Shown here: piece after piece, positions 5,676-33,970 of the stretch
Layout: each line of letters begins with the position of its first letter
Position numbering within the stretch: the first letter of the stretch is position 1
NCBI GenBank assembly: GCA_903911135.1
Contig: CAIWCG010000163.1
Location: 1 to 34,053, forward strand
DNA: 34,053 nucleotides
Direction: 5' to 3'
Origin: an uncultured Bacteroidota bacterium
Lineage (GTDB): Bacteria; Bacteroidota; Bacteroidia; AKYH767-A; JABDAW01
The notes under the pieces: generated by a model
Seen by the model: the letters and a program-made list of their open reading frames with translations, nothing else
What the model was told of the DNA's origin: nothing
Databases searched by the model: none
Program-made: the position numbers and the translations under genes

Positions 5676-5762
5676 TAATTATTTAAAATTATATCTTTTA
5701 TCGAGATAAGCATCGGTTTTGACCATGTTTTATTCGAGAATGAGCAAAAGTATAACTTATGT

Positions 5763-6010
5763 TTACATTTGTTATACGAATGGTTACATTTGTTATACGA
5801 ATGGTTACATATGATATACGAATGGTTACATACGATATACGAATGGTTACATTTGATATACGAATGGTTACATTTGATATACGAATGTTTACATTTGATA
5901 TACGAATGGTTACATTTGATATACGAATGGTTACATTTGATATACGAATGGTTACATTTGATATACGAATGATTACATATGATATATTAATGCTTACAAA
6001 GTATATAAAT
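5763..6010. repeat. Tandem array A: 21-bp period, 11 full units plus a degenerate 12th
   Basis: Units start every 21 bp from 5763 to 5994, with core TTACATTTGATATACGAA. Eleven are full length (5763-5993) and a decayed copy follows. Most copies differ by 0-3 bases; changes lie at the ATTTG step (ATATG, ATACG) and at the last base. The array fills the gap between the convergent membrane-TPR and hutI genes. Because 21 is a multiple of 3, two plus frames stay open (7-residue peptides MVTFDIR and YEWLHLI), but there is no convincing start or promoter, so I do not call a gene. Confidence 0.97.
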
Positions 6011-8544: not shown

Positions 8545-9678
8545 TTAGACTTTCGAAACAGGAAACAATTGTTTTAGGACAGAAATTGTGTAATCGATTT
8601 CTTCCTTGGTATTATAGCGGCTAAATGAAAATCTAACATTTGATCTGTTTGGATCAGCATTTATACCAGCTAAAACATGTGAACCAATATTGCTTCCAGA
8701 TGAACATGCACTTCCTCCAGAAGCTGCAATTCCTTCAATATCCAGATTGAACAACAACATTTCCCCGATTTCTGATGGCGGAAACGAAACATTCAAAACT
8801 GTATATAAGCCATTTTCATAATCTCCATTGAATCGAATTCTTGGAATGGCTTCCTTTAATTGGGCAATCATGTAAGATTTTAGCCCCTTTATATATTCCA
8901 TATCCATATCGAGATTCTTGCAGGCAATTTCCAGAGCTTTTGCCAAACCCACTATTCCATATATGTTTTCTGTTCCGCCTCTCATGTTTCTTTCCTGTGA
9001 GCCTCCAAAAATGAATGGATGAATTTTGATGTTACTGTTTATATAAATGAACCCGATACCTTTTGGTCCATGAAATTTATGAGCTGAACAATTGACAAAA
9101 TGAACATTTAAATTCTTTAAATCATAAACATAATGACCCATTGATTGAACTGTATCTGAATGGAATATTGCGTTATACTTCGAGCAGATTTCACTCACCT
9201 TTTTAATTGGCAACAACGTTCCAATTTCGTTATTTGCATGCATCAACGACACTAAACTTCGTTCATTATTGGCTAATAATTCTTGTAAATGTTCCAAGTT
9301 TACATGTCCTTGGGCATCAATGTTTACATAACTTAATTTTATCAATCCCCTTTCTTCCAACTCCTCCAAAGTATGCGTAACTGCATGATGTTCAATCCTT
9401 GAACTGATGACATGCTTGATTCCCAAGTCGCGAACAGTACAGTATATTGCCATATTGTTCGCTTCCGTGCCGCTTGATGTAAAGAAGATTTCGGATGGAG
9501 AAACATTCAATAAGTTAGCTACCGTTTTTCGGGAGGTTTCGATGAGACTTCTTACTTCCCTACCATAGGAATGTATCGAGGAAGGATTACCGAATTTTGT
9601 TTTCATTACTTCCAACATAACGTCTATAACTTCTTGATTTAGAGGCGTTGTTGCAGCATTATCTAAAAATACTTTCAT
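8545..9678 (-). CDS. Cysteine desulfurase (NifS/IscS-like, class V aminotransferase)
   Basis: A 377-aa PLP enzyme that removes sulfur from cysteine as a persulfide for Fe-S clusters, tRNA thiolation and related pathways. The start (FLDNAATTPLN), the PLP-binding Lys201 in SAHKFHGPKG and the persulfide-carrying Cys325 in GGSACSSGS are all visible. The loop is of the IscS/NifS group I type. No iscU, mnmA or other partner lies next to it, so the specific acceptor is unknown. A selenocysteine lyase role feeding the SelD at 21543 is conceivable but unsupported. It sits 57 bp downstream of glmM on the same strand with no obvious own promoter, so co-transcription is possible. Confidence 0.93.
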   Translation of the reverse strand: MKVFLDNAATTPLNQEVIDVMLEVMKTKFGNPSSIHSYGREVRSLIETSRKTVANLLNVSPSEIFFTSSGTEANNMAIYCTVRDLGIKHVISSRIEHHAVTHTLEELEERGLIKLSYVNIDAQGHVNLEHLQELLANNERSLVSLMHANNEIGTLLPIKKVSEICSKYNAIFHSDTVQSMGHYVYDLKNLNVHFVNCSAHKFHGPKGIGFIYINSNIKIHPFIFGGSQERNMRGGTENIYGIVGLAKALEIACKNLDMDMEYIKGLKSYMIAQLKEAIPRIRFNGDYENGLYTVLNVSFPPSEIGEMLLFNLDIEGIAASGGSACSSGSNIGSHVLAGINADPNRSNVRFSFSRYNTKEEIDYTISVLKQLFPVSKV

Positions 9679-11483: not shown

Positions 11484-11756
11484 CTAAGGATATGTGTAGA
11501 AACCCTAAGGATATGTGTAGATACCCTTAGAAACTCCACTTTAATACTTAGGATATGTGCAGATATACTTAGTATTTGTGTAGATATCCTTAGCATTTGT
11601 TCAGAATCCCTAAGGAACTCCACCTTAATACTTAGTATATGTGCAGATATGCTTAGGATATGTGAAGATTGCCTAAGCATATTTGTAAATACACTTAGTA
11701 TTTCTGCAGATACTTGACAACAATGTGCAGATATTTGACGGATTTGCACCTATCCA
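11484..11756. repeat. Tandem array B: 21-bp period, 11 clear units plus two decayed
   Basis: Units start every 21 bp from 11484, with typical core CTTAGGATATGTGTAGATA. Units 3 (11526-11546) and 7 (11610-11630) are a distinct variant containing ACTCCAC. Units 3-6 and 7-10 align position by position, giving an 84-bp higher-order repeat. The last two units (11715-11756) keep only parts of the core. The array lies between the 3' end of the T9SS gene (11887, minus) and the 5' side of glmM (11139, minus), about 310 bp upstream of the glmM promoter element. The remainder of this 747-bp gap shows no gene. Confidence 0.95.
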
Positions 11757-18835: not shown

Positions 18836-18865
18836 CAAAACGAGAAAGTTATTATTGTTGGTCTT

Positions 18866-19130
18866 AATAAGATGATTAGACCCATAAACTTTAATCCTTT
18901 GCTATAAATAAGATGATTAGACCCATAAACTTTAATCCTTTGCTATCAATAAGATTATTAAGACCAACAAACTTTAATCTGTCGGTCTTAATAAGATGAT
19001 TAAGACCAACAAACTTTAATTTTTCGGTCTTAATAAGATGATTAAGACCAACAAACTTTAATCTTTCTGTCTCAATAAGATGATTAAGACCAACAAACTT
19101 TAGTCTTTCGGTCTCAATAAGATGATTAAT
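18866..19130. repeat. Tandem array C: 42-bp (2 x 21) units, each with a perfect 9-bp dyad
   Basis: Units begin at AATAAGATGATTA at 18866, 18907, 18948, 18990, 19032, 19074 and 19116 (partial), giving spacings 41, 41, 42, 42, 42, 42. In the later units GGTCTTAAT and ATTAAGACC flank AAGATG, making a perfect stem-loop at each unit junction. The first two units carry TTAGACCCATAAAC with a one-base deletion and lose the dyad. The array lies between the convergent argS and FKBP genes. A minus-strand frame (18891-19163) reads a 14-residue repeat containing NHLIETERLKFVGL but is not called as a gene. Confidence 0.95.
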
Positions 19131-23690: not shown

Positions 23691-23757
23691 AACTTTACCA
23701 AAGTTCTAAACTTTGGTAAAGTTGGAAACCACTCCGGTCAATCGACCGCTGTGGTTT
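23691..23757. repeat. Compact palindromic element: two nested palindromes plus a hairpin
   Basis: AACTTTACCAAAGTT (23691-23705) and AACTTTGGTAAAGTT (23709-23723) are perfect inverted copies with a 3-bp spacer, and each arm is itself a 6-3-6 palindrome. Immediately after, AAACCAC/GTGGTTT (23726-23757) encloses CGGTC/GACCG with a 4-nt loop. This resembles the REP-like palindromes scattered in Bacteroidota genomes, but it could also be a paired operator because it touches the -33 position of the minus-strand T9SS gene. Confidence 0.8.
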
Positions 23758-23853: not shown

Positions 23854-24084
23854 ATGCCAATCCACGAACGTGGAATGCCAATCCACGAACATGGAATGCC
23901 AATCCACGAACATGGTTTATCAATCCACGAACATGGTTTGCCAATCCACGAACATGGTTTATCAATCCACGAACATGGTTTATCAAAACACGAACATGGT
24001 TTATCAAAACACGAACATGGACTGCCAAAACACGAACATGGATTACCAAAACACGAACATGGTTTACCAAAACACGAACACGGT
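23854..24084. repeat. Tandem array D: 21-bp period, exactly 11 units
   Basis: Units start every 21 bp from 23854 to 24064. The constant part is CACGAACATGG, and the preceding part drifts: the first six units have CAATC, while units 7-11 have CAAAA. The first unit has the perfect dyad CCACG-AA-CGTGG. The array sits between two divergent genes (T9SS protein and FN3-like protein), so it is upstream of both. A plus frame (23854-24114) starts with ATG and reads heptads such as LPIHEHG, but no promoter or RBS supports it. Confidence 0.97.
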
Positions 24085-24185
24085 TTAGAAAAATTTGCCA
24101 CCTTTTTTTTTTGATAATCCAAGATATTTATTCTTGAAAATCATTCAACAAAAAAAGTAATGAATAATACCAAATTAAAAAATCG

Positions 24186-24232: not shown

Positions 24233-24883
24233 ATGGCAAAATTAATCGAGTTTTACGAAAACAAAACGATTCCTGAAACAGACGAAATCCGCATCAGGAT
24301 AAACAGCGTTTTTGGTACCACAGGCATGGGGATTTCTGGCAATACGAACTTTACAATGATTCACGCCGAGGATGTGAATGTCCTTGCCGGTGGTGTGGTT
24401 TGGAGAACTGCGCAAGACAAGGCGGCGAACAGAAACGAAATAGATATCCGCCATGCAGAAGAGAAGATGCTGGCTTTCCAAAAACTGCTGAAGGTTTATG
24501 CTGTAGAAGCCAACCGTCAACATGGCGGAACTAGCGTCTTGGCAGATGAAGTAGCCCTTGAAACTACTGGAATGACATTGGCCAAACCAGGCGAAGAGGT
24601 GGGACAGATGGACCAAGCCGTCATCACCACCATAGAGGCGGTGAAAGGCGTAACTGGCAGGGCGAAAATTACGGTGCAGACATCGAAGAAATATTGCCAC
24701 GGAACCTACGTGGAAATAACGGAAGTGGTGAGCGGAGAGGTGACGATAGAACATTCTACCGACAAGCACATAGTGATAATAGATGGGATGAAGCACGGCA
24801 AGGATTACCAGGTTCGTGTGTGCTACGATGGCACCGACAAAACCCGTGTTTGGTCGGACCCAAAACCGTTTACGGCGGTGTAG
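24233..24883 (+). CDS. Hypothetical protein with C-terminal fibronectin type III-like domain
   Basis: A 216-aa protein without a recognisable signal peptide or membrane segment. Residues 1-125 are a mixed region I do not recognise (NTNFTMIHAEDVNVLAGG, then a Lys/Glu-rich helix around 75-95). Residues about 126-216 look like an FN3-type beta sandwich (GRAKITVQTSKKYCHGTYVEI, ending GKDYQVRVCYDGTDKTRVWSDPKPF, at 185-213). The YQVRV and W-S-D-P end pattern is the main support. It is monocistronic with its own promoter element and a strong terminator (24907-24951). I cannot assign a function. Confidence 0.75.
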   Translation: MAKLIEFYENKTIPETDEIRIRINSVFGTTGMGISGNTNFTMIHAEDVNVLAGGVVWRTAQDKAANRNEIDIRHAEEKMLAFQKLLKVYAVEANRQHGGTSVLADEVALETTGMTLAKPGEEVGQMDQAVITTIEAVKGVTGRAKITVQTSKKYCHGTYVEITEVVSGEVTIEHSTDKHIVIIDGMKHGKDYQVRVCYDGTDKTRVWSDPKPFTAV

Positions 24884-30194: not shown

Positions 30195-30698
30195 ATGAAA
30201 AAGATACTACATGCACTCCTTTTGATGCAGTTTATTCTTTTCTTTATGAATATTGCCCAAGCGCAAAAGAACAACGTCCTGAAACCCGCTTATGCAGGCC
30301 ATATCGACTATGCAAATGGCAATTTCGGCACCTTCAATTATCCCCAAAGCGGCGATTCGGTCATCGTTTTCATCACCGATAGTTTGCATATAAACGTACT
30401 TATCTTCCAAGGGCAAAATGTGAACGAAAAACGAACCATCGAGGCCCCGATGGGCAACCTGAAACTCATGCGCCGCAAGGTTTATGACGATATTCAGGCC
30501 CCCGATAAAATCATTCCTACCACCAGTGTCGATGCCAAATATCTGGGTAAAAGCGCCAGCCACAATGGCACCAGTTATACCCTCACCATCACCCATTTTG
30601 GCAACGGAAATATCGCCAACTTGGTGTTTGTGGAAGAGCACGGTGGCGTGAGGATAGATGATTTATTCTTGGCAGTCTTGAAAAAAATCCAGCAGTAA
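30195..30698 (+). CDS. Secreted hypothetical protein
   Basis: A 167-aa protein with an N-terminal signal peptide (1-23, ending AQAQ). The mature part is predicted mainly beta (GTFNYPQSGDSVIVFITD, TSYTLTITHFGNGNIANLVFVEEHGG), with one helical end. I do not recognise a family and see no catalytic motif. It lies 33 bp after the threonine aldolase with no promoter element between, so it is probably co-transcribed. The stop codon lies inside the left arm of a 9-bp hairpin that begins two tandem stem-loops (30692-30768). Confidence 0.75.
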   Translation: MKKILHALLLMQFILFFMNIAQAQKNNVLKPAYAGHIDYANGNFGTFNYPQSGDSVIVFITDSLHINVLIFQGQNVNEKRTIEAPMGNLKLMRRKVYDDIQAPDKIIPTTSVDAKYLGKSASHNGTSYTLTITHFGNGNIANLVFVEEHGGVRIDDLFLAVLKKIQQ

Positions 30699-30768
30699 AA
30701 TAAGACTTTTTTTACTGCCAATATTTCTATGATAATTGCCCGAAAGGGGCATAATTATAGAAATATTG
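30692..30768 (+). terminator. Double stem-loop after the secreted hypothetical gene
   Basis: The first hairpin is GCAGTAAAA with TTTTACTGC (30692-30718), including the stop codon. The second begins at the next base: CAATATTTCTAT with ATAGAAATATTG (12 bp, 30719-30730 and 30757-30768), enclosing TGCCC/GGGCA with loop GAAAG. No T-run follows. It could end transcription or protect mRNA 3' ends. Confidence 0.6.
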
Positions 30769-30900
30769 ATGAAAATTTTATCCATTAATAAATTATTCAT
30801 GATTATCATTGATGGAATATGGATGCTATTAAAATACTCCATACTTAATAAAAATAAAAATATGCCTTGATAAATATACAACCTACTCAAGAAAGCCAAA

Positions 30901-31047
30901 ATCTTACCCCTCTTAAGCTAAATCTTACCCCTTTATCTCAAAATGTTACCCCTATAACCCAAAATGTTACCCCTTTATCTCCAAGTTTTACCCCTTTTAC
31001 GCCAACTTTTACCCCTTTTATTCCAAGTTTTACTTACGATTCTTTTA
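30901..31047. repeat. Tandem array E: 21-bp period, about 7 units
   Basis: Units begin at 30901, 30922, 30943, 30964, 30985, 31006 and 31027, marked by TTACCCCT with a variable remainder. The last unit has TTACTTAC and runs into a 9-bp perfect hairpin (TTTTACTTA/TAAGTAAAA, 31043-31064). A plus frame (30867-31058) would read heptads such as NVTPLSQ and SFTPFTP. It lies in the 745-bp gap between two plus-strand genes. Confidence 0.93.
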
Positions 31048-31064
31048 CTTATGCCTAAGTAAAA
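31043..31064. terminator. Hairpin between arrays E and F
   Basis: Perfect 9-bp arms (TTTTACTTA and TAAGTAAAA) with a TGCC loop. No T-run follows, so it could be a terminator or simply a structural boundary of array E. Confidence 0.4.
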
Positions 31065-31087
31065 ATAATTTGTGTTGATGAACCTCA

Positions 31088-31234
31088 AAATAGTACATGG
31101 TTACTTCCAAATAGTACATGGTTACTTCCAAAAAGTACACGATTATTCCCAAAAAGTACACGATTATCCCAAAAAAGTACACGATTATCCCGAAAAAGTA
31201 CACGATTATCGCCAACTTTTACCCAGATTTCAGC
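31088..31234. repeat. Tandem array F: 21-bp period, 6 units plus one E-type unit
   Basis: Units begin at 31088, 31109, 31130, 31151, 31172 and 31193. The first two contain TAGTACATGGTTACTTCC, and the next four AAAGTACACGATTAT. The seventh position (31214) reads AACTTTTACCCAGATTT, which matches array E. The phase of E and F is the same: the shared CGCCAACTTTTACCC occurs 210 bp (10 x 21) apart. The rest of the gap up to the gene at 31444 has no further repeat. Confidence 0.93.
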
Positions 31235-31416
31235 TACTTCTGTCTAAGGTTTTAGCTTTGTTGAGTACATTAATATTGATAATTTACGTATTAAAATGAT
31301 AAATAGACACAATTTTGGCAGACTTATTCATCATGAATTGACAAAAAGACAGTTTGGGTTAAATGCTTTTTAAGGTCATCAATAAAAACAGTAGGCCCCA
31401 TGCCCACCGAAATGCT

Positions 31417-31443: not shown

Positions 31444-32451
31444 ATGACAACACGTAAATTCAATATCGGCGACAGCGTAAGGTTTCTTAATGAGACTGGC
31501 GGAGGCGTTATTTCAGCCATCATCAGTCACGATTTGGTCATGGTTTCCGTTGAAAACGACTTCGAGTTCGAATTTCAGACCAACCAGTTGGTTTTGGTGA
31601 ACAACAAGACTGATAAAAACAACACCACCTCCTCCACTCCACGTAAAACCACCGCCTTCAACGACCAGATTTCGGGCAAAGAGGGGCTATTTTTAGCTTT
31701 CACCAAAGAAGACGAAACCGAAAACCCCACCCATCACATCTATTTGGTCAACAATACCAATTTTATGGTTCTTTATGCCTATAACATCGTTCATAAACGC
31801 GAATTCATCGGCGTAAATACGGGTGTTATCGTCCCGGTTTCAAAACATCTGATGCAGGTGGTGAAACAAAACGAACTCGACGACTGGAATGCCGTTTCCA
31901 TCGATGCAATATTTTACCAAAAAGGGTTTTATAAGCCACTCGAACCCGTTTCCAAACTCCTCACCTTAAACATTTCGTCCTTTACCCGAGCTAAGAATTT
32001 CAAGAAGCTTGATTTGCTCGACAAGGAGGGTTTTGTCTTCAGCATCTGGATGAAAGAGGAGCCCAAAAAGGAAGAAAAACCAAGCATGAAGTTCGTTGCC
32101 AAGGACATTTCGGAAGGAATGATGAAGGTAAAAGAGGTCATTCGCAAGCCTGCAAACGATTTTCCAGGCATGACGACCATGGAAGTGGACCTTCACATCG
32201 AAGAACTGATTGACGACATCCGTGGCATGAGCAATGCGGAGATTATCAAGATTCAATTGCGCCATTTCGACCATAAACTGAACGAGGCCATTACCAATAA
32301 AATGCGCAGTATCGTCTTCATTCACGGTATCGGCAAGGGTGTTTTGAAGAACGAGATCATTTCCATTTTGGATACCATGGATGGCATCACCTATTCCAAC
32401 GCTTCGATGCAAAAATATGGCAACGGGGCCACCGAAGTCTTTCTTTATTGA
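31444..32451 (+). CDS. DUF2027 and Smr domain protein
   Basis: A 335-aa cytoplasmic protein. The N-terminal region opens with an SH3-like barrel (KFNIGDSVRFLNETGGGVIS) followed by the DUF2027 middle domain found in Bacteroidota. From about residue 243 to the end comes an Smr domain: MEVDLHIEEL, then FIHGIGKGVLKNEI, then the final GATEVFLY. Smr domains, first seen at the C-terminus of MutS2, have nicking endonuclease or RNA-cleaving and ribosome-rescue functions; the activity here is untested. ruvB follows 60 bp downstream with its own promoter element. The pairing of an Smr protein with the Holliday-junction helicase makes a nucleic-acid role plausible. Confidence 0.9.
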   Translation: MTTRKFNIGDSVRFLNETGGGVISAIISHDLVMVSVENDFEFEFQTNQLVLVNNKTDKNNTTSSTPRKTTAFNDQISGKEGLFLAFTKEDETENPTHHIYLVNNTNFMVLYAYNIVHKREFIGVNTGVIVPVSKHLMQVVKQNELDDWNAVSIDAIFYQKGFYKPLEPVSKLLTLNISSFTRAKNFKKLDLLDKEGFVFSIWMKEEPKKEEKPSMKFVAKDISEGMMKVKEVIRKPANDFPGMTTMEVDLHIEELIDDIRGMSNAEIIKIQLRHFDHKLNEAITNKMRSIVFIHGIGKGVLKNEIISILDTMDGITYSNASMQKYGNGATEVFLY

Positions 32452-33718: not shown

Positions 33719-33970
33719 GCGGACCCGTTTAAAGAAACAGCCGCACTATCTTTAGATATGGCGGATGTATCTATATAAACGGCGGACGTTTGTAAAGTAA
33801 CAGCGGACGTTTCTTTACAAACAGCGGACATATCTAATGAAACAGCAGACGTATCCATACAAACAGCGGACGTATCTGTACAAATGGCGGACGTATCTAA
33901 AGAAACGGCGGACGTATCCTTACATTTGTCCGCCGTTTCTTTAGATAGGTCTGAACTATCCACTATTCCC
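33719..33970. repeat. Tandem array G: 21-bp period, about 12 units, one inverted near the end
   Basis: Units begin every 21 bp from 33719, with core GCGGACGTATCTAAAGAAAC. Units 1-10 are direct. The eleventh (33929-33949) is in reverse orientation, and with unit 9-10 sequence it makes a perfect 20-bp stem: arms 33894-33913 and 33928-33947, loop 14 nt. Unit 2 is also internally symmetric (CCGC..TATCT/AGATA..GCGG, 33741-33764). A minus frame reads heptads such as VSLDTSA from a GTG, but no promoter supports it. The array lies 181 bp after ruvB; the remaining 83 bp of the window show nothing else. Confidence 0.95.

Follow-up and report, generated by a model that had tools for sequence, protein, structure and literature searches.

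The E/F locus

The window analysed here is the entire contig C163 (34053 bp) of the genome under study, G000, an assembly of 3.8 Mb in 296 contigs. It carries a block of 21-bp direct repeats, E/F, between a short open reading frame and a gene for a DUF2027 protein with a C-terminal Smr domain (Table 1), and genes for RuvB and a lyase are also found nearby. The relatives compared below are two congeners, G001 and G002, and G003 from the sister genus. When cut at every 21 bp from position 30902, the region yields, in order, six E units, three units of degenerate sequence, six of F type and an E-like remnant, with the proviso that array copy number on MAG contigs may be wrong. Tandem Repeats Finder calls a period of 21 over E (30899-31033). 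The E units are mutually identical at 13-18 of 21 positions in an identity matrix, and units F3-F5 at 19-20 of 21.

Table 1. Positions of the E/F features, the adjacent genes and the other 21-bp arrays in the window
Feature	Position	Strand	Description
Upstream ORF	30195-30698	+	167 aa; no Pfam match
AT-rich hairpin	30719-30769	+	tip GCCC-cgaaag-GGGC; terminator-like by reading; outside the array, downstream of the ORF at 30195-30698
Weak inverted repeat, left half	30884-30901	+	TACTCAAGAAAGCCAAAA
E block	30902-31027	+	six 21-bp units, TCTTACCCCTCTTAAGCTAAA ... TTTTACCCCTTTTATTCCAAG; from unit rows, Tandem Repeats Finder and identity matrix
15-mer, copy 1	31000-31014	+	CGCCAACTTTTACCC; E5/E6 boundary
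Degenerate middle	31028-31090	+	63 bp, exactly 3 lattice units
F block	31091-31216	+	six 21-bp units: TAGTACATGGTTACTTCCAAA x2, AAGTACACGATTAT... x4
Last F unit	31196-31216		AAGTACACGATTATCGCCAAC; F/E chimera with F left part and E5-like right end GCCAAC
15-mer, copy 2	31210-31224	+	junction of F6 and E-like remnant
E-like remnant and right array border	31217-31248	+	remnant TTTTACCC
Weak inverted repeat, right half	31250-31267	-	TTTTAGCTTTGTTGAGTA; 16/18 complementary
Downstream gene	31444-32451	+	DUF2027 + C-terminal Smr domain; orthologues in G001, G002 and G003
Other array	5759-5998		period 21/42, different unit
Other array	11484-11712		period 21/42, different unit
Other array	18860-19129		period 21/42, different unit; gap downstream of argS
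Other array	23857-24087		period 21/42, different unit; gap downstream of the gene at 24242
Other array	33747-33919		period 21/42, different unit

With head-to-tail copies of constant length and no spacers, E/F is a tandem minisatellite. A CRISPR array was considered and rejected, given units that abut without spacers and the neighboring genes named above. A structured RNA was likewise rejected, there being no Rfam match over threshold and fold z values of -0.37 and +0.49. The divisibility of the step by three also raises the idea of a coding array of seven-residue repeats, which we regard as extremely unlikely. Stop-type triplets are somewhat scarce in arrays (1.75 per unit vs 2.01 in GC-matched flanks, with controls at ~2.0-2.1, for 69 arrays of G000-G002), and frame +1 of E/F contains a single stop. 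However, this frame is broken at ~31055, all frames through E/F hit a stop, and no ORF of at least 80 aa covers the region. Moreover, variation across arrays shows no codon-position excess (p 0.92), and periods of 18, 24 and 27, which are other multiples of three, are absent from the genus sample.

A common 21-bp register for E and F

A sequence-only reading of the window had claimed that E and F are two unit families sharing a single frame. The shared step is in itself weak evidence for one lattice, because nearly all arrays of this genome have a period of 21. What bears out the claim is phase, in-phase similarity between E and F, the chimeric unit at the end of F and a 15-mer unique in the genome. 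The seven occurrences of TTACCC (30904 to 31219) fall on a single residue modulo 21, and so do the six of AGTACA (31092 to 31197), such that F unit starts occupy a fixed lattice, as had been proposed. Together the two motifs define a common 21-bp lattice from 30902 to 31237 that spans the degenerate middle, and all pairs of repeated k-mers of at least 10 bases within 30880-31260 are spaced by multiples of 21. The same reading had suggested autocorrelation at lags 21 and 210 as a check; self-match over 30880-31240 is 0.694 and 0.543 at these lags, above the 0.17-0.38 observed at lags 15-20 and 22-27.

The consensus units of E (TCTTACCCCTTTAACTCCAAA) and F (AAGTACACGATTATCCCCAAA) share 13 of 21 positions when aligned at phase 0, the highest value over the 21 offsets. 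Only 17 of 3000 column permutations gave an identity as high at any offset (~0.006), a value that is indicative only, as are the other p-like values given here, because several tests were picked post hoc with the data already seen. The 63-bp spacer also matches E best at phase 0 (rank 1 of 21, and nothing stronger).

The 15-mer CGCCAACTTTTACCC occurs exactly 210 bp, or 10 x 21, apart in its two copies, as had been noted, with starts at 31000 and 31210, where the reading had given approximate positions of 31001 and 31211. A whole-genome pattern search of the 3.8 Mb returned only these two exact copies. The remaining matches have two mismatches each and are not more frequent than those of a reversed-pattern control, and the 15-mer thus does not have the genome-wide commonness that could have undermined the proposal. 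The chimeric last F unit continues directly into TTTTACCC. The sequence-only reading placed an E-type unit at this point; the sequence is indeed E-like, but it is a remnant of just ~8 bp and not a full unit.

That two independent 21-bp arrays came to lie side by side and in phase by chance is very unlikely. Such adjacency would not be rare where almost all arrays have period 21, and 63 bp of degenerate sequence do separate E from F. Chance fails to account, however, for the in-phase identity of 13/21 with its permutation value of ~0.006, for a shared genome-unique 15-mer that sits exactly on the lattice where F meets E, or for a spacer that measures a whole number of units. Judged by these in-phase likenesses, the E and F units are evidently diverged versions of one unit. 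The 32 bp that follow E (from 31028) also resemble the 32 bp that follow F (from 31217), at a lag of 189 bp (9 x 21) and with 21 of 31 positions identical. This is the best border likeness among all lags up to 900 bp, while a gapped local alignment is by itself not significant, and it hints that E and F could be two array-plus-border modules in tandem.

Twenty-one-bp arrays and unit turnover in the genus

Arrays were surveyed with Tandem Repeats Finder in a 437-kb sample of G000 (11.5%, picked by contig number), from which genome totals were extrapolated. The period is 21 or 42 in 72 of 79 tandem arrays, corresponding to ~630 genome-wide by extrapolation. These periods also dominate in the congeners (19/21 arrays in G001 and 5/8 in G002), and are found in 1 of 29 arrays in the sister genus G003 and in 1 of 16 overall among 18 genomes from other families. 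Densities per 10 kb of unmasked sequence are 1.67 for G000, 2.28 for G001 and 0.75 for G002, and shuffled sequence gives zero such arrays. Intergenic self-match in the genus peaks strongly at lags 21, 42 and 63. The arrays are intergenic, typically have 7-13 units and are not clearly biased with respect to gene orientation; for ~45% of intergenic positions an array is no farther than 400 bp away.

The units themselves are mostly unrelated. Among 69 arrays, the best pairwise unit matches track the shuffled distribution apart from a slight excess at the top (22 pairs reach 14 or above vs ~9 expected, and six reach 17 or above), and neither a common k-mer nor a 10-11-bp sub-period is present over all units. 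Cross-species array matches of ~70-73% identity over repeats were judged compatible with chance, because a single unit match multiplies along an array. Thus, within the genus, step length is conserved and unit sequence mostly is not. The Bacteroidota -7 promoter motif occurs in the units of two arrays vs 1.0 expected. Enrichment of TTTG in units was discarded since it disappears in comparison with flanks, and hairpins at a fixed ~130 bp from arrays, hinted at by a few loci, proved not to be general.

Several side observations were made during this survey. The window array at 33747-33919 is ~70-75% like arrays of G002 (C3, C38). A 33-bp palindrome, AACTTTACCAAAGTTCTAAACTTTGGTAAAGTT, occurs in the window at 23691-23723 and at L051:19363-19397 and L063:3082-3114; in two species it is ~130-170 bp away from arrays, and dispersed copies also exist in both G001 and G002. 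The sister genus G003 carries many intergenic 7- and 8-bp arrays, such as TCAACCTA and CTCATAC, instead of 21-bp ones (L067-L072, L113-L132), and G021 (L105) likewise has 7-bp arrays.

Homologous loci in G001 reveal how units change. A 68-bp tail (CATCACTTTAGTAGTTTTCTC...TATATAAGGAGT) is found at nine dispersed loci (L348-L356), with one additional fragment. All nine tails adjoin a 21-bp array, always in one register, while the units differ between loci: they begin with TGTRAY, AGTGAY or a near variant and then diverge (TGTTACACGACCAGGTGGTAA, TGTGACATTGTAATACTTCCC, TGTGATGATGCAAGGTTGCAA, AGTGATGTTGTCACCTGACAA and others). The general flank-orientation counts of G001 (72 same, 7 opposite) mix in duplicate loci and loci fetched through paralogues, and so the tail family alone was used. 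A dyad in its units (positions 14.5/4) is kept at 59 of 90 pairs, compared with 46.8 (SD 3.4) after letter shuffling between loci. A value as high was reached in 6 of 20000 permutations, and in 2 of 120 with five one-per-family representatives. The exchanges are T-A/C-G and A-T/C-G, and because the arms covary in register across the nine loci, register and dyad persist as letters change. The replacement of units within one lattice, which had been suggested for E/F, gains indirect support from these nine loci, where the same tail and register accompany different units. For E/F, which are homologous, the word would have to mean that a diverged variant was amplified, or that a unit was duplicated and diverged, and not that a foreign unit was swapped in.

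The orthologous gaps downstream of argS (L139:1147-1400) and of the gene at 24242 (L155:2261-2383) in G001 contain 21-bp arrays, as do their counterparts in the window (Table 1), with different units, and orthologous gaps of congeners also differ by gain or loss of an array. Relatives with only E or only F in a different phase, which would have spoken against the proposal, were not found: the gap before the Smr gene has another 21-bp unit upstream in G001 and does not exist in G002. The G001 array, one of the nine with the tail, lies 179 bp upstream of the DUF2027-Smr orthologue, has a unit unlike those of E/F and is preceded by a gene that is not syntenic with that upstream of E/F. An array before the Smr gene in both species may be a coincidence, because so large a share of intergenic positions have an array within 400 bp.

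The shared tail also recalls a MITE-like mobile element, comparable to BrickBuilt (see below), that could have brought E/F in as one element, an account that we consider rather unlikely. Tail plus array is common to the nine dispersed G001 loci, and E/F is framed by a weak inverted repeat of 16/18 (Table 1), whose score of 26 is reached by ~4% of swapped flank pairs and is therefore nominally unusual but suggestive only. Across all arrays, however, six flanking inverted repeats score at least 26 where 2.4 are expected, hardly above the swapped-flank level. Both flanks of E/F are unique across the three genomes of this genus, with no leader or tail in common with dispersed copies, and neither a target duplication nor a clean empty site was found.

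Dyad symmetry extends beyond the tail family. Unit-consensus palindromes with scores of at least 6 are found for 22% of the arrays in G000 and 38% in G001, compared with ~2% of shuffles. In 18 of the 21 palindromic arrays the arm columns are better conserved than the remaining ones, which is partly a selection effect. The palindrome excess, together with the in-register covariation, points to some constraint. One source of constraint might be binding by a dimeric DNA-binding protein or a phased filament at sites two helical turns apart, with spacing and dyad selected while sequence drifts. We consider this unlikely. It would fit the length of 21 bp (2 x 10.5), the enrichment and arm conservation of palindromic units, the dyad arms that covary in nine homologous arrays, and the blockwise conservation along the unit. 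On the other hand, palindromic arrays are a minority, the arrays as a whole have neither a common motif nor the 10-11-bp sub-period, E and F units are without a dyad above chance, and there is no candidate protein.

Flavo-1 RNA beside the arrays of G000

A 130-bp interspersed element near many arrays proved to be the Flavo-1 RNA (RF01705), a structured RNA in Bacteroidota of unknown function (PMC2864571, PMC9723704). It adjoins ~30% of G000 arrays in a fixed orientation (e.g. L086:8992-9074 and 9508-9590), with 149 copies among the G000 matches listed. Of the 43 copies in the sample, 27 have an array no more than 400 bp away, 14 sit at the end of a contig and two are far from any array; random intergenic placement would put 45% near an array. 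All 27 point away from the array, whatever the gene orientation, and the 14 contig-edge copies are oriented as though an array lay beyond the contig end. For the best 30 copies genome-wide, a set that partly overlaps the first sample, an array is present within 400 bp upstream in 23 cases and downstream in none, and all nine close pairs are divergent. The element was not found in G001 or G002, and in the other genomes checked it occurs without linkage to 21-bp arrays. The Flavo-1 burst is specific to G000 within its genus. Flavo-1 is absent from E/F and from the whole window.

Origin and significance of E/F

We think it probable, with good confidence, that E and F belong as two sub-blocks to a single intergenic minisatellite in 21-bp register, in which an F-type unit was amplified by whole units. 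In this process, a diverged F-type unit would have been amplified locally, inside or beside an E-type array, presumably through slippage or unequal recombination. Whole-unit events of this kind would explain the fixed period, the local homogeneity, the chimeric unit and the retained register. Amplification might have been preceded by duplication of an array-plus-border segment of 189 bp (9 units). Genus-wide, unit sequences would change rapidly, with the 21-bp step and the register to flanks preserved. Common descent of all arrays is something that we infer rather than see, because most have no sequence relation beyond chance.

No match was found in the literature on 21-bp intergenic arrays in Bacteroidota. 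The closest comparison is with BrickBuilt, a minisatellite MITE of Porphyromonas gingivalis with 23-bp direct repeats at 19 sites, which grows and shrinks by whole units between strains (PMC4596501). Both systems are intergenic, belong to Bacteroidota and consist of fixed-length direct repeats without spacers, with leader or tail segments common to several loci and units that have conserved and variable parts. However, BrickBuilt is one family with a 23-bp unit, whereas the genus studied here has hundreds of 21-bp arrays whose units vary even beside an identical tail. E/F, moreover, lacks a shared leader or tail, the shared tail being a property of other arrays in G001. Bacterial VNTR loci are likewise intergenic tandem arrays that change in whole-unit steps, but ordinary genomes contain many periods, whereas here ~90% of arrays have a single period and mostly unrelated units.

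Most likely, the arrays are largely neutral or selfish repeats similar to BrickBuilt, some of them under a putative dyad-symmetry constraint. A purely neutral process leaves a step of 21, and not 20 or 22, unexplained. A founder class with rapid unit turnover is the simplest account of this step, and a constraint of two helical turns is the most interesting one. A broader form of the latter, that several hundred arrays are kept genome-wide and selected for spacing and dyad symmetry, with units replaced in register, to serve as phased sites for protein binding or nucleoid organisation, with Flavo-1 diverging from them in one species, appears to us quite unlikely.

Dispersed arrays usually share sequence and vary in length, whereas the hundreds of arrays in this genus share a step length and leave the sequence free. 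The oriented pairing of arrays with Flavo-1 places an RNA family of unknown function in a consistent genomic setting. That a 21-bp step prevails in this genus but not in the sister genus offers a testable case for what fixes the period of bacterial repeats, be it descent from a founder whose units turn over fast or a physical constraint imposed by two turns of the helix, and the G001 tail family is a ready comparison set.
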